Below are positions 9,515 through 19,490 of a stretch of DNA of 64,000 nucleotides, piece after piece. The stretch is taken from contig JAFYXV010000002.1 of NCBI GenBank assembly GCA_017557885.1, forward strand, positions 441,056 to 505,055, written 5' to 3'. The stretch is from a bacterium (GTDB lineage: Bacteria; Auribacterota; UBA3054). Positions within the stretch are counted from its first letter, which is position 1. Each line of letters opens with the position of its first letter. The notes under the pieces were generated by a model, which saw only the letters and a program-made list of their open reading frames with translations, was not told where the DNA came from and did no database searches. Made by a program: the position numbers and the translations under genes.

Positions 9515-10351
9515 ATGACAGATGACGAAAAAATCGAGGGTTTAGCGGAGTTTGGCGAATACAAAAAAGCCGCTGATCCCGGCAAAAGCGAGAAGGCGCT
9601 TATTTGGCGCACCGCCATAGGTTTGCAGAAGGTGGACGACCTGACGACCTCCTCTTATCTGCGGGGAACCGCTTTGCGCAACATCGAAGGCGAGATCACC
9701 ATTGAAGAGACCGGTAGGATCATATCGGAATACTACAAGTCCAGGTCTATTAGGGAAGAAGCCGCCAAGACCCGCACGGACGAAGCGGACATTGTTGCGC
9801 AGCGGATCGCCGCGCTCCTTTCAGAGCCGACCTTTACCTTGTCAGTCCCCTCTTACATAGCGATCCATCGCAAATTGTTCACCGGCGTTTTTCCTCATGC
9901 CGGAAAGATCAGAGATTACAACATCACTAAAGACGAGTGGGTGCTGAACAACGACACCGTTCGTTACGAGAGCTGGGACGTTATAGCGGATACGCTTGAA
10001 TACGATATCTCTAAAGAAAAGGAATTCAGCTATAAAGGATTGAGCGTTGAGGAGACCATATCGCATTTCTCGCGTTTTATCGCCGACCTGTGGCAGATAC
10101 ACGCCTTCGGCGAGGGGAACACCCGCGCCACGGCCATTTTCGCCATAAAATATCTCAACGCCCTCGGCTTCAAAGCGGACAACGATCTCTTTGCCGAGAA
10201 AGCTTTTTATTTCCGCAACGCCCTGGTCAGGGCGAATTACACCAATCTGCCTAAAGGAATACACCCCGATCTGGTTTACCTGGAGCGCTTCTTCACGAAT
10301 CTCCTAGCCAGCGGAAACTTCGATCTCAAGAGCCGCGAACTGCGCGTCTAG
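9515..10351 (+). CDS. Fic/DOC family protein
   Basis: Fic-domain protein, 278 aa. The family usually transfers AMP or another phospho-moiety to a protein hydroxyl. The active loop HAFGEGNTRATA begins at His196 and matches HxFx(D/E)GN(T/G)R, with the catalytic His and the phosphate-binding Arg present. An N-terminal segment (about residues 45-75, NIEGEITIEE) resembles the helix found in Fic proteins that carry a VbhA-like antitoxin module, but I cannot find a clean (S/T)xxxE(G/N) inhibitory motif. It stands alone: its own promoter, with the convergent radical SAM operon ending two bases after its stop. The target is unknown; a toxin or a regulatory AMPylase are both possible. Confidence 0.88.
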   Translation: MTDDEKIEGLAEFGEYKKAADPGKSEKALIWRTAIGLQKVDDLTTSSYLRGTALRNIEGEITIEETGRIISEYYKSRSIREEAAKTRTDEADIVAQRIAALLSEPTFTLSVPSYIAIHRKLFTGVFPHAGKIRDYNITKDEWVLNNDTVRYESWDVIADTLEYDISKEKEFSYKGLSVEETISHFSRFIADLWQIHAFGEGNTRATAIFAIKYLNALGFKADNDLFAEKAFYFRNALVRANYTNLPKGIHPDLVYLERFFTNLLASGNFDLKSRELRV

Positions 10352-10353
10352 AA

Positions 10354-11340
10354 TTATTCTTTTTTCTTGCGGATAAAGCAGCTCTTGGCGAGGGCGAAGC
10401 AAGGGCAGCCGTGGTATTTTTCATACACCAGCATGCAGGGGCAGTTCCATTTGAGGCCGTAAAGGCACATGGCCATGATGATGTAGTTGAGGTAGATGAT
10501 AGGATGCCAGAGATACAAGCTGACAAGGCCTATGACGGCGATCATGCCGGATTTTGAACGGTAGGAGAAGGCCACCTTCTCCGGCATAAAGGAATAGCCG
10601 AAATAAAGGTGCATAAAGGCTAGGAAAAAGAGTGCGGGCAGCGTCAGCTTGTCCGTTATCACAAAATAAGCCAGAAGAGCGACCAGGACAAGACGCACCG
10701 CGATCGACCACCAGCCGGACAAAGTCGGCACCAGCATGCGGGTGTTGTTCTGGTAAAGGAGATAGTCGGGATCTTTTTGGATAAGCAGCTGTTCCTCGTC
10801 TTTGGCCCTTTTGTACATCAAGGGAAGGAAGATGAGCGCGACCGCCAGGAAGCTCATGAAGTTGAAAAGCATGATAGAGCAGCCGGCGCACCAAAGAAGC
10901 AGCGAGGCGTACATCGGGTGCCTTGCCAAAGAGAAGGCGCCGCGGATGATTATGGGATGGTTTTCCTTTATCTCGATGTCGTCCGACCAGAGTTTCCCAA
11001 TGTTGACTTTGGCCCAGATGTGCCAAAAGGTGGCGAAAAGCAGCGCGATAAGGCCGATCGCGAAGAAGATGTAGCGCGTTACTTGATCTTCGATCTTGAA
11101 TTGGCCGAAGGAATTCAGCCAGAAGGGAAACAACAGAATGACCAGGATCGACATTTCCCTGGTGGCGAAAAAGTTCGACGCTTCTTTGTCAAGTTTCTGA
11201 CGATGCTTAGCGTGCTCTATGAATTTTAAAATGACCGCGACGAGAAGAACGACGCCCGTTGCGTAAACAAAGCCCATTCCAATGAAAAAGAGCGCCGGGT
11301 CTATTGAACGCTCCGCTAATCTATTGACAAACTCCAGCAC
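10354..11340 (-). CDS. Isoprenylcysteine carboxyl methyltransferase-like membrane protein with Cys-rich tail
   Basis: Polytopic membrane protein, 328 aa, with the ICMT/phospholipid-methyltransferase signature HPIIIRGAFSLARHPMYASLL (its RHPMY core binds SAM in this superfamily). About eight hydrophobic segments are visible. The extreme C-terminus is unusual: NCPCMLVYEKYHGCPCFALA followed by KSCF puts five Cys in 25 residues, suggesting metal or disulfide binding. The start is GTG, with GAGGCG upstream, and it overlaps the Lgt-like gene by 20 bases. Last gene of the radical SAM operon. A SAM-dependent methyltransferase acting on a lipid or thiol is inferred; the substrate is not known. Confidence 0.72.
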   Translation of the reverse strand: MLEFVNRLAERSIDPALFFIGMGFVYATGVVLLVAVILKFIEHAKHRQKLDKEASNFFATREMSILVILLFPFWLNSFGQFKIEDQVTRYIFFAIGLIALLFATFWHIWAKVNIGKLWSDDIEIKENHPIIIRGAFSLARHPMYASLLLWCAGCSIMLFNFMSFLAVALIFLPLMYKRAKDEEQLLIQKDPDYLLYQNNTRMLVPTLSGWWSIAVRLVLVALLAYFVITDKLTLPALFFLAFMHLYFGYSFMPEKVAFSYRSKSGMIAVIGLVSLYLWHPIIYLNYIIMAMCLYGLKWNCPCMLVYEKYHGCPCFALAKSCFIRKKKE

Positions 11341-11959
11341 GGCGACGCCTCGAAATAATGTAGGTTAATATGGGAATGAAAACAGCTGCCAGGATATGAT
11401 AGATGGTGAAAGGGCCTATGATGCGGGGTTCGGTCCTTATGAATTCCACCAGGAAACGCATGATCAAATAAGACAAGAGATAGACGGGGAAAAGCAGATC
11501 GGCCCTTTTTGTTCGCCTGTAAAAAAGGAAGAGCGAAAAAGCGGCGATAATTTGGAATACGCTTTCGATAAGCTGGACGGGAATGCCACAACAAGACGCG
11601 CAGCAGCCGTTAAAATAACAGCCGATCTTTCCGATCCCTGCGGCTATTGCCAAAGGAATGACAAAACGGCCGCCGAAGGATGATTGGTTTTGATGAGTGA
11701 AGATCTTATAGAGGTTGATGGCGGTGAAAGCTCCGAGGACGCCGCCCATAAAGCTTTTCCCGGTGAAGCCAAGGTTGCCCTCAAAGCCGTAGCTTATTAT
11801 GACCGGCAGCTTCATGCCTATTATTAGCCCCAAAAGTAGGCAAATATAGACGCTCAGCCCGTTCTTGTTTTCGGCCTTGGGAATAGACAGGCATCTGGCG
11901 GCCAAGAGGCCAAGAACAACGCCCAAGATCTCAAACAGATTGTAAATTCCTAAGGTCAT
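11321..11959 (-). CDS. Lgt-like membrane transferase with altered catalytic residues
   Basis: Seven-TM protein, 212 aa, of the prolipoprotein diacylglyceryl transferase family: KSFMGGVLGA, GKIGCYFNGCCASCC and RFLVEFIRTEP follow the order of the Lgt signatures. It departs from true Lgt: the conserved His of the HGG region is Met, the signature Arg is Lys, and the Glu after the conserved Asn-Gly is Cys, within an NGCC..CC cluster. It is also short (true Lgt is about 260-300 aa). The ATG at 11959 is chosen over an upstream start because it forms an ATGA overlap with the gene before it. It may move a diacylglycerol-like lipid to a different acceptor; this is inference. Confidence 0.72.
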   Translation of the reverse strand: MTLGIYNLFEILGVVLGLLAARCLSIPKAENKNGLSVYICLLLGLIIGMKLPVIISYGFEGNLGFTGKSFMGGVLGAFTAINLYKIFTHQNQSSFGGRFVIPLAIAAGIGKIGCYFNGCCASCCGIPVQLIESVFQIIAAFSLFLFYRRTKRADLLFPVYLLSYLIMRFLVEFIRTEPRIIGPFTIYHILAAVFIPILTYIISRRRRAGVCQ

Positions 11960-12294
11960 TGTTGGGCAAGCAAATAAATCACGACCACAAGAATGAAACA
12001 CAACAATCCCCAGATGACCCAAATGTTTTTGGTCAGCCAGGCGATAAATCCGAAAAGCAGGACCGGGAAACCGAACCAGGCGATATAAAGATGAAAGATA
12101 TAGTCCTCGCCGAGATGGTCATATATCTGCATATTCAAAATGCAAGTCCCGAACATAACCGCCGGGATCCCTACGATCGTAAGGAAAAACCCCAACAAGC
12201 CTTTGATGACCTTATTCGACTCGTCTTTGCTTTCCGGTCTGCCGCTCGCTTCCGGGACGGGATTCTCGTTAATTTTTACTTCCTGCTCTTCCAT
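11956..12294 (-). CDS. Small three-TM membrane protein, copy 2 of a tandem pair
   Basis: Protein of 112 aa with a charged N-terminal 28 residues and three hydrophobic segments. Its core repeats that of the gene upstream: GIPxVxFGTC in the first segment and AWLTKNIWVIWGLL in the third. I recognise no family. ATGA overlap with the Lgt-like gene downstream shows translational coupling. The conserved Cys in FGTC sits at the membrane border. Probably a partner or scaffold for the enzymes of this operon. Confidence 0.75.
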   Translation of the reverse strand: MEEQEVKINENPVPEASGRPESKDESNKVIKGLLGFFLTIVGIPAVMFGTCILNMQIYDHLGEDYIFHLYIAWFGFPVLLFGFIAWLTKNIWVIWGLLCFILVVVIYLLAQQ

Positions 12295-12314
12295 AGAGCC
12301 TCACTTGAAGATTA

Positions 12315-12674
12315 TCACAAATTGGCAAGCCACAAAAGCATGACGACCAGAATAAAAGACAACAACCCCCAGATGACCCAAATGTTTTTGGTCAGCCAGG
12401 CGATAACGATGCACAAAACCACAGGGAAGCCAAGCCATAAATATGTATAAACATCGTCATCTAAGCCGATGGATCGGCTGTCTAACGCAAGGCTAAAAAG
12501 GCAGGTGCCGAAAAGAACGACCGGTATGCCGATAAAGGTCAGAATGAAGCCCAGCGCGCCTTTTGCCACGGACTTCGCGTAATTGGGCTCTTCCTGTTCG
12601 CCCGTTTTTTCGCTTTGTCTTTCTTCCGAAAGTTCTTTCAAATATTTAATGTCTTCTTCATCCATAAATGTCAT
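12315..12674 (-). CDS. Small three-TM membrane protein, copy 1 of a tandem pair
   Basis: Protein of 119 aa, paralogous to the next gene: FGTCLF, GFPVVL and the near-identical AWLTKNIWVIWGLLSFILVV. The N-terminal 40 residues are soluble and acidic. The ATG at 12674 is chosen because it has GGAG five bases before it and overlaps the radical SAM stop as ATGA; the longer frame would run far into that gene. No known domain is recognised. The tandem arrangement suggests a local duplication, possibly giving a heteromeric membrane partner. Confidence 0.78.
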   Translation of the reverse strand: MTFMDEEDIKYLKELSEERQSEKTGEQEEPNYAKSVAKGALGFILTFIGIPVVLFGTCLFSLALDSRSIGLDDDVYTYLWLGFPVVLCIVIAWLTKNIWVIWGLLSFILVVMLLWLANL

Positions 12675-13990
12675 TGCTCCATTTTGGATCTTAAAAGATT
12701 GTGCACGCAGAAGGGAATGACTCTCCCCTTTCCTACGGATACGCCGGTGCAGCACTTCCTGGCGCGCTCCCAGTCGAAATTGCCGGAATCCATGAAGTTC
12801 TTGACGATGATGCGGACGATCTTCATGTCCTTGTGGGTGGAGCCGTCGCCTTCGGAGAATTCCTGAAGTTTCTCAAGCATGAAGGCGCTGCCGAGTATTT
12901 TTCCCACAAAACATTTGCAGACGTTCTTCTTCATGTAGTCGAGGATAGTTTTGTCGAAGGCGATGCGGTTAGAGATCTGAGCCTTGCACTTCGTGAAATC
13001 CACATAGTCGCCCAGGGAATAGACCTTGTCGCCCTGACAGAAGAGAAAGCCCAGGCTGGTGCAGTTGGGATGCGAGCAGGGCAGCGGGATGAGGTCCTTG
13101 TAGGCCATCAGCTTGCTGCCAGCTATGGCGAGCAGGATGTCCTCCTGGAAGACGGAAGCGAGGGCGGAATCCTCAGCACTGCCGACTTTTGTGAGGCGCT
13201 GGAAAGTGATGCCGGAAATGTGCTTCGTCTTTACGGAAAGGTCAAGGATCTTGGGAAGCTCTTTTAAGTTATCCCTGAAGACGGTGACCGCCAAGCAGAT
13301 CTTTATTTCCGCCTCGTTAAGCTTTTTTATGATCGCGAGCTTTTCATCTAAAAGCGCGCGGCCGCGCAGAGCTTTGTAAACCTTGTCGTCGAAGCCGTCG
13401 AACTGCAGGTAAACTTCCACTCTGTCTTTGTGCTTTTCCAAAATCCCGAAAAGTTTTTCGTTTTCAAGAAGCGCAAGGCCGTTGGTGTTTATAAGAATGC
13501 GGTTGACGTCGGCTTTCAGGGCGGCTTTGAGAAGCTCCTCGAATTTGGGATGGACGAGGCATTCTCCGCCGGACAGCTGCAGGACGTCCAGGTGTCCTTT
13601 TTCAACGGTCAGAAGCGCGTCGAGGCGCCTTTTGAATTCCGGCAGCGTGATGTGCCTTGGCGCTTTTTTGCCGAAATAGCAGACGGGGCACTTTAGGTTG
13701 CAGTCTTCCGTAACTTCAATGAGGCCTGTGCAGATGTGCTGGTTGTGCTTGTCGCACCAGCCGCAATCCGGGCCGCAATCGCCCTTAAATTCCGTTATGG
13801 GCTGGAAAGGCTGGCCTTTTACGTCGAAAGTTTTGTCCAGAAAACGCTTGGCGTCCTTGGCAATAGAATTGGAAAACGTTCCGTGCTCCGGGCAGGTTCT
13901 TTCCAAAACGATGTCCTTGCCCTTTTTGATCTTTCGGGCGGGAACGGTCTTAAGACAGACGGGACAAATGCTTTCAGTCTTGCTTATCAT
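12671..13990 (-). CDS. Radical SAM protein of the Tes/MJ0619-like type
   Basis: Radical SAM enzyme, 439 aa. The cluster motif is Cys97-x3-Cys101-x2-Cys104 (CNLKCPVCY). An N-terminal zinc-ribbon-like part has Cys9, Cys12 and CPEHG (Cys33), followed by CGPDCGWCDKHNQHIC (Cys72, 76, 79, 87); the order zinc ribbon, CxxDCGxC..H, CNLxCPxC is the hallmark of the archaeal tetraether synthase Tes and its relatives. The C-terminal part adds CSHPNC, VCKCF and RKCCTG, enough for extra Fe-S clusters. Tes couples lipid chains; for this bacterial relative the substrate is unknown. First gene of the operon; GGAG lies before the ATG. Confidence 0.85.
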   Translation of the reverse strand: MISKTESICPVCLKTVPARKIKKGKDIVLERTCPEHGTFSNSIAKDAKRFLDKTFDVKGQPFQPITEFKGDCGPDCGWCDKHNQHICTGLIEVTEDCNLKCPVCYFGKKAPRHITLPEFKRRLDALLTVEKGHLDVLQLSGGECLVHPKFEELLKAALKADVNRILINTNGLALLENEKLFGILEKHKDRVEVYLQFDGFDDKVYKALRGRALLDEKLAIIKKLNEAEIKICLAVTVFRDNLKELPKILDLSVKTKHISGITFQRLTKVGSAEDSALASVFQEDILLAIAGSKLMAYKDLIPLPCSHPNCTSLGFLFCQGDKVYSLGDYVDFTKCKAQISNRIAFDKTILDYMKKNVCKCFVGKILGSAFMLEKLQEFSEGDGSTHKDMKIVRIIVKNFMDSGNFDWERARKCCTGVSVGKGRVIPFCVHNLLRSKMEQ

Positions 13991-14050: not shown

Positions 14051-14127
14051 TGGTGGACGTTACTAGACTCGAACTAGTGACCTCTACCGTGTGAAGGTAG
14101 CGCTCTAACCAACTGAGCTAAACGTCC
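14051..14127 (-). tRNA. tRNA-Val (anticodon CAC)
   Basis: A full cloverleaf reads on the minus strand: acceptor stem GGACGTT/AACGTCC, D-arm with AGCTCAGTTGGTTAGAGC, anticodon stem CTACC/GGTAG with loop TTCACAC (anticodon CAC), T-arm CTAGTTCGAGTCTAG, discriminator A and an encoded CCA. It reads GUG valine codons. It sits between the radical SAM operon and lpxA, with no sign of an integrated element next to it. Confidence 0.96.
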
Positions 14128-15064: not shown

Positions 15065-15997
<933 letters not shown>

Positions 15998-16015
15998 GGT
16001 TTTTCTCCTGTATTT

Positions 16016-16777
16016 TTAAATGTTAATTGCGTTGGTGATGTTGGCGTAATTTAAGTTGGGAACGAAGATCTCGTTGTGCGCGTGTCCGCGGAAGACTTTT
16101 TTCCCGTTGTGGAAGGCGAAGAGCTGGGAAAGGGGAAAGTCCTCCCAAACTTCGTCGTCCAAAGGCGTGGTCGAGAAGATGAAACAGTTGTCCTCGTGCT
16201 TGTAACACAGGGAATTGTTCATGTTCTTGTGAACGTAGAGCAGTTCCCCGTCGAAGATGAGAAGGTTGAGTTTGTTGCGGTGGGAGAGCTTCCTGACCGC
16301 TTCGTCCACTATGTCAAAACGCTTCCTGGCGCTCAAGGTCTTTTGGCTTTGCGCCTTGTTCACTTCGTCTATAATAAAGAGCAGGATCTTTTCGGAGTCC
16401 GTGTCGCCCTGCTGAAGCCCGAGATACTTGGTCAGGTATTTGCCGGAATAGACCGTGCCGTTGTGGGCCACGGTCCATTCGCGTCCTGTGGAGTCCTTGC
16501 CGCAGAAGGGATGGCAGTTCTCCGTTTTAATAGAGCCTATTGTGGCGAACCTGATATGGGCCACAATGTTGTTTTGCGGGGCGAGGCGATTTAAAGTTTC
16601 TTTTGCGATCTCGCTCTTGTAAGCGGCTACGGGTTCCTTTATGACGCCGAAGGCATCCTCATCGCTTCTCAAAAGGCCCCAGCCGTGGGGGAATTTTTGG
16701 CTGTGGCTTAGGAAAGCCTCGAGGTAGGGTTTGACATCCAGAGGTTCATGGGAGGAGATTCCAAGCAGTTCGCACAT
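16016..16777 (-). CDS. Class II glutamine amidotransferase
   Basis: Ntn-type amidotransferase, 253 aa, of the YafJ group. The catalytic Cys2 follows the initiator Met (MCELLGISS), and the glutaminase signatures GWGLL, AHIRFATIGSI and VAHNGTV are in order. There is no synthase domain, so the acceptor is unknown. It starts one base after the preceding gene's stop, with GGGAGG before the ATG. Relatives such as EgtC and DUG3 hydrolyse gamma-glutamyl amide bonds of thiol compounds; with two glutamate-cysteine ligases next door, a gamma-glutamyl thiol hydrolase or transferase is a reasonable guess. Confidence 0.87.
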   Translation of the reverse strand: MCELLGISSHEPLDVKPYLEAFLSHSQKFPHGWGLLRSDEDAFGVIKEPVAAYKSEIAKETLNRLAPQNNIVAHIRFATIGSIKTENCHPFCGKDSTGREWTVAHNGTVYSGKYLTKYLGLQQGDTDSEKILLFIIDEVNKAQSQKTLSARKRFDIVDEAVRKLSHRNKLNLLIFDGELLYVHKNMNNSLCYKHEDNCFIFSTTPLDDEVWEDFPLSQLFAFHNGKKVFRGHAHNEIFVPNLNYANITNAINI

Positions 16778-16778
16778 G

Positions 16779-17957
16779 TCATTTACCTCCCAGTTTTCGC
16801 ACGTTGTCTAAAGAAGAGCCGATAGCTTCCCTTACTTGTTCGCAGAGTCTTTTTTTGGTCAGTTTCTCCTTTTCGTAAGCAAGTATTTTGTTTATTTCGT
16901 TTTTGTCTTCAAAGCTTGAGAAATAACGCTCCATTTTGTCGAGAACTTCGAGGGCGGCCTCTTTTATCGGCTTCTTTCCGATTCTAACGTCTTTGAGGTC
17001 GTATCTGGCGGCGTTCTGGTGGTTCTTCACGGCTTCCTTTTGAAGCGCTTTGGTGAAGCGGAAATCTTTTTTGCCCAAAAGATAGACCGCGAGAAGATGC
17101 GCAAAGTCGAGATCCTTCTCCGCTATGCCCAGTTTTTCCAAGGGATCAAGGTCGAACATCCTCAGCTCGATGTGGTCGATGCCGGTCTTTTTAAGATTTT
17201 CCGGGGAGTTCTCTCCCCTGGGCTTGATCCTGACAGGGAGGTAAAGTTCGTGGGCGGAATAAAGCGCTCCGCTCTTCACATACGCTTCGGCGCTCTTGAC
17301 GTAATCGTTTATCGACGAGTAGTCGAGGGCCGGAATGAAGGTGTTCCAGTAGCCTTTGCTTCCGCTTCTGGGAGAGGCGTCCTTATTGAGCGCGAGGCCC
17401 GGCTTCCTTTTGTCGAAGGAGCGGTCGTAAAGGGGGCTCGCGGCGGTCAAAAGGACTAAGAGCCAGCTGTAACGGGAGAGCTGTTTGAATAGTCTGAGAT
17501 AAAGGTCGTTTTTTGATTCGGCTTGCTTTTTGAAAAACTCATCCCGGAAGGAAAAATTGAAGTGGATGCCGGAATAGAGCATGATCCTCTTGCCGTAGCG
17601 TTTTTCCAGGAAGGCCCGGTAGTCGTATTCAAAAGAAAGCTTGCCTTTATATTGGGCGATGGGAATTTCCTTTTCGCTCTCAAAGTAGGGCGGGTTGGAG
17701 TAAAGCCAGAGCGTCTCGCCTCTTTTGGCGATGGTTTTCCTGGCGTAGGCATCCAGCGATCCCAAAGCGTTGAGGGCGCCTTTCACGGAATCGCAGACCG
17801 GCGTGATTATTTCCAGCTGGTTCTCGCAGAAATCCCTTGAGAGGCGCTTTGATTTGAAAGGATGCGGAGAAAGGGCTAGGCGCCCTGCGCTAGTTACGCG
17901 CAGAGTTTCCCTTTCCAGGCCGAAATAGCCTTTGAATATGTCGCTTTTGAATTTCAT
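16779..17957 (-). CDS. gshA: Glutamate-cysteine ligase, GshA (proteobacterial/GshF) type
   Basis: ATP-dependent ligase, 392 aa, forming gamma-glutamylcysteine. GLERETLRV near residue 13 and ENQLEIITPV are the glutamate- and ATP-binding signatures of the GshA/GshF N-domain; YSGIHFNFSF and IELRMFDLDP follow. It is shorter than E. coli GshA (518 aa) but close to the bare catalytic domain. It begins 15 bases after the other ligase. No glutathione synthetase is seen in the window, so gamma-glutamylcysteine itself, or another thiol, may be the end product. Confidence 0.87.
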   Translation of the reverse strand: MKFKSDIFKGYFGLERETLRVTSAGRLALSPHPFKSKRLSRDFCENQLEIITPVCDSVKGALNALGSLDAYARKTIAKRGETLWLYSNPPYFESEKEIPIAQYKGKLSFEYDYRAFLEKRYGKRIMLYSGIHFNFSFRDEFFKKQAESKNDLYLRLFKQLSRYSWLLVLLTAASPLYDRSFDKRKPGLALNKDASPRSGSKGYWNTFIPALDYSSINDYVKSAEAYVKSGALYSAHELYLPVRIKPRGENSPENLKKTGIDHIELRMFDLDPLEKLGIAEKDLDFAHLLAVYLLGKKDFRFTKALQKEAVKNHQNAARYDLKDVRIGKKPIKEAALEVLDKMERYFSSFEDKNEINKILAYEKEKLTKKRLCEQVREAIGSSLDNVRKLGGK

Positions 17958-17972
17958 TCAGTCCTTTTTCTA

Positions 17973-19358
17973 TTATATCACCGCATAACGCTCGACAAAC
18001 TCTTTAATGGGCTTTCCCTCCCCGAGGCCGGCAAGCAATTCCTTGGCGGGGTTAGTTAGCTTTTCCGCGCGCTCGAAGAGCGCCTTGAGAAAAACTTCCT
18101 CCCCGAAGCCTCTTTTTTGAAGGCCGCTTTCCGAGAGGGCGAGGATTCTTAGCAGCTGCTCTTTTACTTTGCGCTCGTCTGCGAAAGAAGGAAGCTTCCT
18201 GGCGGAGAAACGATGCTGCAAATTCGCGGCGTCATAGCCTTTGCCGTAGATGACATTATCCTTTTCCAAAAGCTCCTTAAGATCCGGCAGTTTCTCTATG
18301 AGTCCGGTGTGGAAAGCCGCCACCGTCATGCTGTCCTTTATGGGCTGGCAGCAGGCGCTCCGGTATTCCACGGTTCCGCGGTAGGTGAGATCCTCCAGTT
18401 TGAAGGTCCTGAGGTACTTGATGTCCTCTATCTGCGGAACGATCGTTTTGACACGGTATCTTTTGCCGTCAAAATACCTGCCGGTCAGCCTGTCCAGCTT
18501 GAAGTATTCGCTTACGGGGACCGGGTCGAAGTCAAAGTACTTGCCGTCGCGCTCGACGCAGTAGATGCTCGTCTTTTTGATATAGGCCACCAGGTCGTCA
18601 ACGCTCTTCAAGGCTTTGTTGAAGAGCCCCACGTTCCTTTTGTTGTAGCCGTGCATGCTTTCTTCCCAGAAGATGTTCCTGGAGCACAGAAGGTCGGGAT
18701 ACTCTCTTGAGGGCGAGTTCGCGAAAAGCAGTATCTTGTAGGGCTCGAGGAGCCCGAAGACGTTCAGGGTGTCTATGAGGTTGGCGAAATCAACGTCCAG
18801 CTGGACCTGGGAAGCGCTGGTGAAGGTCCCGAAATCCGGGCGGGCGTGAAAGCGCGTGCCCTTTTCCCCAACGTGGTTTTTGTAAGACCTTAAGTAATGC
18901 AGAAGCATCCTGTAGCGCTCGCTGGGGATGGGGTAGTTGTGGTTGATATTGTAATTGGGATTGACGCCCATGCCGGTCACGGCATGGCCGTGACGCTTGA
19001 GATATTTCGCGACGTAGGCGTAGTATTTGTCGAAGCTCTCCTTGATCTCGAAAATGGTCCGGCGTTTCCCCATGGAGAATTCAAGGTTGGAATAGCTGCA
19101 GTCAAAGGAAAGGGAGTCGCCGCTTTTCCCTTCGATCAAATTGTAAGGCTCGCCTTCGCTGTCCTTGGAAGCGACTTTGAAAGAGAAATGCTTGCGGAAG
19201 GCCTCGGCCATTCCGTGCGCCACGCTCTCTATTACCGGCTGATTGGACAGGTTGACGATGGGCATTTCAATCTCAATACCGATGTATTCCCCGCGCTTCT
19301 TCTGCGTGGGAGCGATGTATTTTTTGTAGATCGCTTCTTCGATGTCGTGATTTTTCAT
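17973..19358 (-). CDS. Glutamate-cysteine ligase-like protein, GCS2 type
   Basis: Protein of 461 aa with the carboxylate-amine ligase fold of the GCS2 family: YIGIEIEMPIVNL near the start, then DCSYSNLEFSMG, HARPDFGTFTSASQVQLDVD, and TVEYRSACCQP. The sequence is clearly different from the GshA-type ligase next to it, so the operon holds two members of the ligase superfamily. They may act on different amino acids or in succession. The ATG at 19358 has a very strong AAGGAGGGGG box; the frame continuing to 19466 would cross the promoter. First gene of the thiol operon. Confidence 0.82.
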   Translation of the reverse strand: MKNHDIEEAIYKKYIAPTQKKRGEYIGIEIEMPIVNLSNQPVIESVAHGMAEAFRKHFSFKVASKDSEGEPYNLIEGKSGDSLSFDCSYSNLEFSMGKRRTIFEIKESFDKYYAYVAKYLKRHGHAVTGMGVNPNYNINHNYPIPSERYRMLLHYLRSYKNHVGEKGTRFHARPDFGTFTSASQVQLDVDFANLIDTLNVFGLLEPYKILLFANSPSREYPDLLCSRNIFWEESMHGYNKRNVGLFNKALKSVDDLVAYIKKTSIYCVERDGKYFDFDPVPVSEYFKLDRLTGRYFDGKRYRVKTIVPQIEDIKYLRTFKLEDLTYRGTVEYRSACCQPIKDSMTVAAFHTGLIEKLPDLKELLEKDNVIYGKGYDAANLQHRFSARKLPSFADERKVKEQLLRILALSESGLQKRGFGEEVFLKALFERAEKLTNPAKELLAGLGEGKPIKEFVERYAVI

Positions 19359-19400
19359 TGCCCCCTCCTTGGGACATATCCCCATTGTTAAGAGGACACC

Positions 19401-19429
19401 ATTATACACATATTCACATACTATGTCAA
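19401..19429 (-). promoter_or_regulatory. Consensus promoter of the thiol operon
   Basis: On the minus strand TTGACA (19424-19429), a 17-base spacer and TATAAT (19401-19406) match the sigma-70 consensus perfectly. It drives the GCS2-type ligase, gshA, amidotransferase and cysK genes. Confidence 0.9.
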
Positions 19430-19439
19430 TATGTGAATA
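19411..19439. promoter_or_regulatory. Inverted-repeat operator in the divergent Rrf2/thiol region
   Basis: TATTCACATA (19411-19420) and TATGTGAATA (19430-19439) form a perfect 10-bp inverted repeat with a 9-base gap. It covers the -35 and most of the spacer of the thiol operon promoter, so a bound protein would block it. The Rrf2 protein encoded divergently is the obvious candidate to bind. Confidence 0.72.
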
Positions 19440-19459
19440 AAGGAAGGCGGAGAAAGGGC

Positions 19460-19490
19460 TTGACACAATTGCCGACTAATTTGATATACT
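19460..19490 (+). promoter_or_regulatory. Promoter of the Rrf2 regulator
   Basis: TTGACA (19460-19465) and TATACT (19485-19490) with a 19-base spacer lie just before the ribosome site AAGGAG. The long spacer suggests a promoter that may need help or be tuned by the regulator. Confidence 0.6.

Follow-up and report, generated by a model that had tools for sequence, protein, structure and literature searches.

Two described enzymes have relatives in the system considered here. One is the radical S-adenosylmethionine (SAM) enzyme Tes (tetraether synthase), whose metal-binding residues are established and which makes a C-S intermediate held on its C-terminal cluster (PMC9433317). Bacterial Tes homologues are known and were proposed by Zeng et al. 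to act in the synthesis of branched glycerol dialkyl glycerol tetraethers (brGDGTs), a link that was not shown (PMC8941075); we found no demonstrated role for them in the literature searched. The other is the protein lipidation enzyme Lgt. Its active site faces the periplasm, and changes at H103, R143 (Lys included) or E151 abolish the function of the E. coli protein (PMC4728403). Here we describe a five-gene cassette in which relatives of both enzymes are encoded together. It lies at 10354-13990 of a 64,000-nucleotide stretch ("the window") of contig JAFYXV010000002.1, from a rumen bacterium of the Auribacterota, and specifies a Tes-like radical SAM enzyme, two small proteins (A and B) with three transmembrane (TM) helices each, a Lgt-like protein and an ICMT-like methyltransferase.

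Known kinds of enzyme apparently form an undescribed system here: no description of the cassette was found in the open-access literature on radical SAM enzymes with Lgt or ICMT, or on bacterial Tes homologues (preprints lay outside the search). Our preferred reading, held tentatively and with somewhat less than even confidence, is that the cassette would be a membrane-protein lipidation system, the small proteins serving as substrates of the Lgt-like enzyme and the lipid being one altered by the radical SAM enzyme.

The cassette, its enzymes and its recurrence

All five genes are on the minus strand. The radical SAM gene overlaps that of protein A by 4 bp (ATGA), the gene for protein B overlaps the Lgt-like gene by 4 bp, and the Lgt-like and ICMT-like genes overlap by 20 bp; the sole non-overlapping junction, between A and B, has a gap of 20 bp. 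An initial annotation, made from the sequence, had described five coupled genes with three of the four junctions overlapping, and translation of the window reproduced its coordinates and junctions. Its family assignments agree with Pfam, which finds Radical_SAM with Zn_ribbon_HMPTM (a Tes-type N-terminal ribbon), LGT (3.7e-16) and ICMT (3.5e-13). The small membrane proteins that it had called a pair are paralogues (46-47% identity), to which the Pfam search assigned no family. For protein A we preferred the start at ATG 12674 over ATG 12665 (the 116-amino acid [aa] form, P0002) after alignment with relatives.

That annotation had also made its proposal depend on the genes being regular neighbours elsewhere, which they proved to be. 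In our genome collection, 15 loci encode proteins closely related to the radical SAM enzyme (69-95% identity); they belong to the window's rumen genus, Elusimicrobiaceae, rumen Alphaproteobacteria and one Kiritimatiellae genome (host names are the labels of the sequence records). Every related locus of sufficient length has the order radical SAM gene, one or two small membrane genes, Lgt-like gene, ICMT-like gene, and the flanks are largely unrelated outside the cassette genes. Across phyla the radical SAM proteins share 69-77% identity, whereas the canonical Lgt proteins of the same genomes are less alike (41-42% to Alphaproteobacteria, 27-30% to Elusimicrobia). This disparity points to horizontal transfer of the cassette and indicates that it probably moves as one unit among gut bacteria of several phyla. 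Within the window's genus the radical SAM gene is present in six of eight genomes, the source genome included; the two genomes without it are 83% and 90% complete, so that loss and missing sequence are indistinguishable.

A wider form of the core is found in other phyla (Table 1): it comprises genes for a radical SAM enzyme, a Lgt-like protein and a small membrane protein, to which ICMT and DUF4395 may be added. In the phylum of genome G376 a Lgt-like gene lies at most 1.5 kb from 22 of the 25 radical SAM matches. Because Persicobacter psychrovividus falls in this group, the phylum is probably Bacteroidota. The ICMT-like gene is optional across the wider family. Thirty genomes sampled from the phylum to which an Omnitrophota locus belongs gave no ICMT-like match and included none of the window's relatives.

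The lead enzyme is a relative of Tes, not Tes itself. By sequence, Methanocaldococcus jannaschii Tes (7tol, 4e-41) is the one close match among solved structures, and the predicted structure (pLDDT 87) has the Tes fold over its whole length (7TOM, TMq 0.84 over 484 columns). The next fold match is SkfB, at 0.41, and the second-tier matches are peptide maturases (SkfB, SuiB). A rubredoxin-type motif, C9-X2-C12-X20-C33-X2-H36, is present, with C9, C12, C33 and H36 invariant in the clade; the N-terminal cluster ligands C72/C76/C79/H82 are kept; C97/C101/C104 form the radical SAM CX3CX2C motif; and the C-terminal cysteines are C305/C310/C413/C414/C428, of which C310, C413, C414 and C428 have aligned counterparts in Tes. 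Among NCBIfam models the top match is TrsS (NF045646; 250.2 bits against a cut-off of 490) and the second is Tes (NF045702; 187.7 bits against 450). Both scores fall below the cut-offs, so by these rules the enzyme is neither TrsS nor Tes. Thus the placing of this protein with Tes rather than with peptide-modifying enzymes, on which the initial annotation had also staked its case, stands for sequence and fold; identity with Tes does not, given the score and two residue replacements discussed below. A quick tree unites the gut clade and the G107 protein in one supported clade, separate from M. jannaschii Tes, from the G376-phylum group and from paralogues beside fatty-acid-synthase-like genes; many branches of this tree are long and its deep order is unsure. 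A known anti-phage defence system was considered and rejected: PADLOC returned only weak similarity of the radical SAM core to prokaryotic viperins, and no family match covering the enzyme.

The Lgt-like protein scores well above the gathering threshold of Pfam LGT (59.6 against 24.9 bits). Its predicted model has one significant fold match, E. coli Lgt (5AZB; E 5e-4, TMq 0.59, root mean square deviation 5.9), which is of moderate quality, and a PDB profile search with the Lgt-like family gave nothing useful. A canonical-looking Lgt was additionally present in all 17 genomes checked, making the Lgt-like protein always an extra copy. In E. coli numbering (reference UniProt P60955, whose numbered residues agree with those in PMC4728403) the window protein keeps Y26, Y235, R239, E243 and R246, has Cys in place of N146, and has lost H196 and Y201. 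The gut clade retains the R239/E243/R246 network, and in the G376-phylum clade E243 or R246 is variable. H103 and N146 are likewise missing from the broader set of Lgt-like proteins encoded beside Tes-like genes. That this protein can carry out the canonical Lgt reaction is not supported, key residues being replaced.

The ICMT-like protein matches Pfam ICMT and the structure 4A2N (4e-14), and falls short of NCBIfam NF040696 (83.9 against 160 bits). The C-terminal stretch CPCM..YEKYH.CPC (10354-10500) is invariant and of metal-binding appearance, and its outline resembles separate DUF4395 genes at loci L066 and L161. Equating the extra C-terminal domain with DUF4395 was considered because in G298, G585 and G550 a separate DUF4395 gene adjoins ICMT, and because both end in CP..Y..C motifs; profile comparison did not support it (E 0.38).

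The small membrane proteins and their cysteine

The small proteins vary in length (59-182 aa), helix number and sequence, and fall into 14 clusters at BLASTP 1e-4. The sole feature that they have in common, which was not part of the initial annotation, is a Cys 15-23 residues after a Lys or Arg, at the outer tip of a helix that runs from inside to outside. Its context is one of small residues and lipobox-like (FGTC, FGSC, SSGC, GLGIC; Table 1). Shuffling of uncharged residues gave an expectation of 2.2 clusters obeying a strict spacing rule, and 12 of the 14 obeyed it; in the identical test Met, Ser, Thr and Trp were near expectation. Cluster members had first been picked with a match where one existed, a bias that was removed by random member draws.

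The small-protein set was hand-chosen from neighbouring frames and a mechanical scan was therefore added as a control. Of 39 Tes-like loci with a Lgt-like gene, 32 had a small protein in the scan, as did two of 48 without (Fisher p 1e-14, after redundant loci had been removed by hand), figures to be read knowing that the loci are partly kin and that those lacking Lgt belong mostly to other radical SAM subfamilies. Some of the 32 matches may be chance open reading frames (ORFs), such as L067 and the ORF listed for L009; conversely, some true small proteins (L008, L010, L109, L162 and L164) fail the strict rule. Four loci obtained after the pattern had been noticed (L161-L164) all have a small protein, as judged by eye, with the Cys contexts LIFGSCLS, LLFGACMV, GPGSCLLM and LSGGMCIF. 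L166, with neither Lgt nor small protein, also fits the association; L165, with a small protein and no Lgt found, does not. No orphan copies of the small proteins were found elsewhere in ten genomes, every match being inside the operon, and the substrate idea thus gains no support from trans-encoded copies.

Two further observations concern these proteins. Comparison with L002, L003, L005 and L006 showed that the loop following the Cys of protein A (12420-12500) is highly variable within the genus, with TM1 and TM3 conserved. Many small proteins of the G376 phylum (L109-L116) start with a conserved LEVGNLxGL, which recalls a recognition motif.

Table 1. Cassette features in the window, gene orders of the wider family and contexts of the TM-end cysteine
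Feature	Positions	Strand	Basis or detail
Tes-like radical SAM enzyme, 439 aa	12671..13990	-	Domains, fold, metal-ligand residues
Small 3-TM protein A, 119 codons, ATG 12674	12315..12674	-	
Protein A, TM1-end Cys codon	12501..12503	-	IPVVLFGT[C]LFSL, Lys 19 residues earlier
Small 3-TM protein B, 112 aa, paralogue of A	11956..12294	-	
Protein B, TM1-end Cys codon	12142..12144	-	IPAVMFGT[C]ILNM, Lys 19 residues earlier
Lgt-like membrane protein, 212 aa	11321..11959	-	Pfam LGT
ICMT-like membrane methyltransferase, 328 aa, GTG start	10354..11340	-	Pfam ICMT, residues ~98-188
G107 gene order			Radical SAM - Lgt - ICMT; 78-aa protein with LVLSSGC upstream
G298 gene order			Four tandem small proteins, then radical SAM - ICMT - DUF4395 - Lgt
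G585 gene order			Radical SAM - ICMT - DUF4395 - Lgt - small protein ending LIFGSCLS..
G550 genes			Radical SAM, ICMT, DUF4395, Lgt, small protein
G376 phylum and Persicobacter gene order			Lgt - radical SAM - small, or Lgt - small - radical SAM; nothing else
TM-end Cys, window			..GIPVVLFGT[C]LF
TM-end Cys, Elusimicrobia			..IPFLLFIT[C]LG
TM-end Cys, G107			..LVLSSG[C]FV
TM-end Cys, G298			..LLFFGA[C]TI
TM-end Cys, G376 phylum			..LIGLGI[C]GT
TM-end Cys, Persicobacter			..VIGTGI[C]GS

Proposed function and alternatives

The succession from a positively charged inner end through some 20 hydrophobic residues and then small ones to the Cys amounts to the geometry of a lipobox, and on this ground we take the small proteins as candidate substrates of the Lgt-like enzyme. 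Acting on the periplasmic side of the inner membrane, that enzyme would place a glycerolipid on the TM-end Cys. Because the lead enzyme has the Tes fold and ligands, we suppose that it would act from the cytosol by C-H activation in an alkyl chain, so preparing or remodelling the lipid. The outcome could be chain coupling, or C-S bond formation through the C-terminal cluster, which may carry a reaction intermediate as it does in Tes (PMC9433317), and the target could be the lipid donor or a lipid already attached. Where present, the ICMT-like enzyme may add a methyl group to the lipid or to the modified protein. The most specific form of this scheme, which we consider rather doubtful, is that a Tes-type enzyme makes an uncommon lipid (an anchor with coupled chains or a sulfur link) and a Lgt paralogue attaches it to the TM-end Cys of small proteins dedicated to this role. 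Variants that include or lack the methylation step occur in several phyla and move horizontally among gut bacteria; a pathway of this kind is not described in the literature searched. The initial annotation had suggested a lipid-facing, thiol-related role, which gains from the lipobox-like Cys placed where a Lgt-type enzyme works; the pathway itself stays conjectural.

Several points weigh against lipidation. The strongest ground for doubt lies in the Lgt-like protein, in which E. coli H103 is replaced by Met, R143 by Lys and E151 by Cys. Since H103 and E151 (and, in the gut clade, R143) are replaced, Cys lipidation by this protein cannot be assumed, and the changes argue for an altered reaction or donor over the canonical one. 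In the lead enzyme Tes Met439 corresponds to Lys397 and Tyr459 to Val417 throughout the cassette clade; both Tes residues are completely conserved in 1000 archaeal homologues (PMC9433317). The small proteins also depart from true lipoproteins: their Cys is in an internal or C-terminal TM helix rather than a cleavable N-terminal signal, and the resemblance to a lipobox is loose, with Thr or Ile often at -1 and also Met. Their topology was deduced solely from charge distribution. Finally, to the partial kinship of the loci in the Fisher test must be added individual exceptions to the pattern: L008 and L010 do not satisfy the strict spacing; of the extra small proteins, L007_1 lacks a Cys and L112_2 has a Glu in the helix, so that both break the rule.

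Could the cassette instead make a free membrane lipid? In that case the radical SAM enzyme would couple or alter alkyl chains, giving membrane-spanning or branched lipids, the Lgt-like and ICMT-like enzymes would act on the head groups, and scaffolding or chaperoning would be the role of the small TM proteins. The Tes fold and cluster ligands are as expected for such a pathway, as are the Tes-like paralogues within fatty-acid-synthase-like clusters and the brGDGT proposal (PMC8941075). It leaves unexplained, however, why otherwise unrelated small proteins carry one Cys at one membrane depth, and why their presence follows that of the Lgt-like gene rather than that of the radical SAM gene; we judge it rather unlikely.

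A second alternative, maturation like that of ribosomally synthesized and post-translationally modified peptides, takes its cue from the small variable proteins, several of them in tandem, beside conserved enzymes. The radical SAM enzyme would modify the small-protein Cys directly, for example to a thioether, and the Lgt-like protein would be a membrane partner. SkfB and SuiB are indeed the second-best fold matches, but Tes is by far the closest fold, there is no consistent leader peptide, and the Cys is predicted at the outer membrane face whereas a radical SAM enzyme is expected in the cytosol. This makes direct maturation distinctly improbable.

All cassette proteins have conserved cysteines (GKIGC..NGCC in the Lgt-like and CPCM..CPC in the ICMT-like protein, for instance), which might pass sulfur or electrons across the membrane in a thiol relay, the radical SAM enzyme inserting sulfur into a lipid or cofactor. 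Such a relay would suit the C-S intermediate of Tes (PMC9433317) and the proximity of related radical SAM genes to a rhodanese gene or to CcdA and disulfide oxidoreductase genes. The cassette itself has no thioredoxin or rhodanese gene, however, and the Cys context is lipobox-like rather than CXXC, so we hold a relay to be very unlikely. That the genes are chance neighbours with unrelated housekeeping roles, for which nothing speaks beyond the absence of a known pathway, is scarcely credible and already contradicted by the overlapping genes, the transfer as a unit and the conserved order amid unrelated flanks in several phyla.

If the lipidation reading is true, bacterial protein lipidation would extend beyond Lgt, LspA and Lnt and would join radical lipid chemistry. 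For one large Tes-like group the cassette points to a partner enzyme, a possible protein substrate and one particular residue as a candidate, and the presence of the minimal three-gene form in a cultured bacterium, Persicobacter, makes the prediction testable at the bench.

Surroundings and comparison with known systems

A tRNA-Val (CAC) at 14051-14127 immediately precedes the radical SAM gene and shares its strand; tRNA sites are frequent entry points of mobile cassettes. Beyond it, in a row on the minus strand (15065-19466), are genes for a cysteine synthase-like PALP enzyme, a class-II glutamine amidotransferase, Glu_cys_ligase (PF04262) and a weak second GCS2-like ligase. Thiol metabolism is thus encoded beside the cassette. 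At the other end a Fic/DOC family protein (plus strand, 9515-10351) is convergent with the cassette.

Tes-like genes also occur in other settings. Paired Tes-like genes lie within fatty-acid-synthase-like clusters at L062 (2116-11986), L063 (3632-7743) and L064 (3919-7806), which encode, as judged by eye, an acyl carrier protein, ketosynthase, reductases and a dehydratase-like protein and are possibly unusual lipid clusters; L062 additionally has a rhodanese-fused membrane protein. A Tes-like gene is followed directly by that of a soluble methyltransferase at L073 (4303-8333), L074 (4983-7093) and L017 (7974-10273). The hosts of these pairs are a Mycolicibacterium plasmid, Haloarcula and Methanococcoides, and the plasmid locus adjoins CcdA and disulfide oxidoreductase genes. 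In an Omnitrophota contig (L018, 451-10250) some five Tes-like stretches follow one another along a single strand. At L128 (1492-2949), in the G376 phylum, the Tes-like protein groups with M. jannaschii Tes (98% SH-aLRT, long branches), possibly reflecting bacterial acquisition of a true Tes.

Set beside known systems, the components of the cassette share some features and differ in others. The small proteins share with the lipobox a positive N-side, a hydrophobic helix and a Cys at the outer end after small residues. The ICMT-like protein has in common with the ICMT and PEMT membrane methyltransferases (4A2N) an ICMT domain with conserved RHPMY..EE, but differs in its extra C-terminal membrane domain, which ends in the cysteine-rich motif given above. 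The Lgt-like protein shares Pfam LGT and the kept R239/E243/R246 with Lgt (PDB 5AZB), but in the window it is only 212 aa long and is extra to the canonical enzyme. TrsS, a radical SAM (seleno)protein, is the best NCBIfam match of the lead enzyme, end to end, but the frame of the latter has no internal selenocysteine (UGA) stop. Finally, the lead enzyme shares with Tes (GDGT-MAS, MJ0619; PDB 7TOL/7TOM) the whole fold, the cluster ligands and the C-terminal cysteines, with the rubredoxin motif at identical residue numbers, but it is 24-25% identical in the structural alignment, is bacterial, and has genes for Lgt-like, ICMT-like and small TM proteins as its neighbours.

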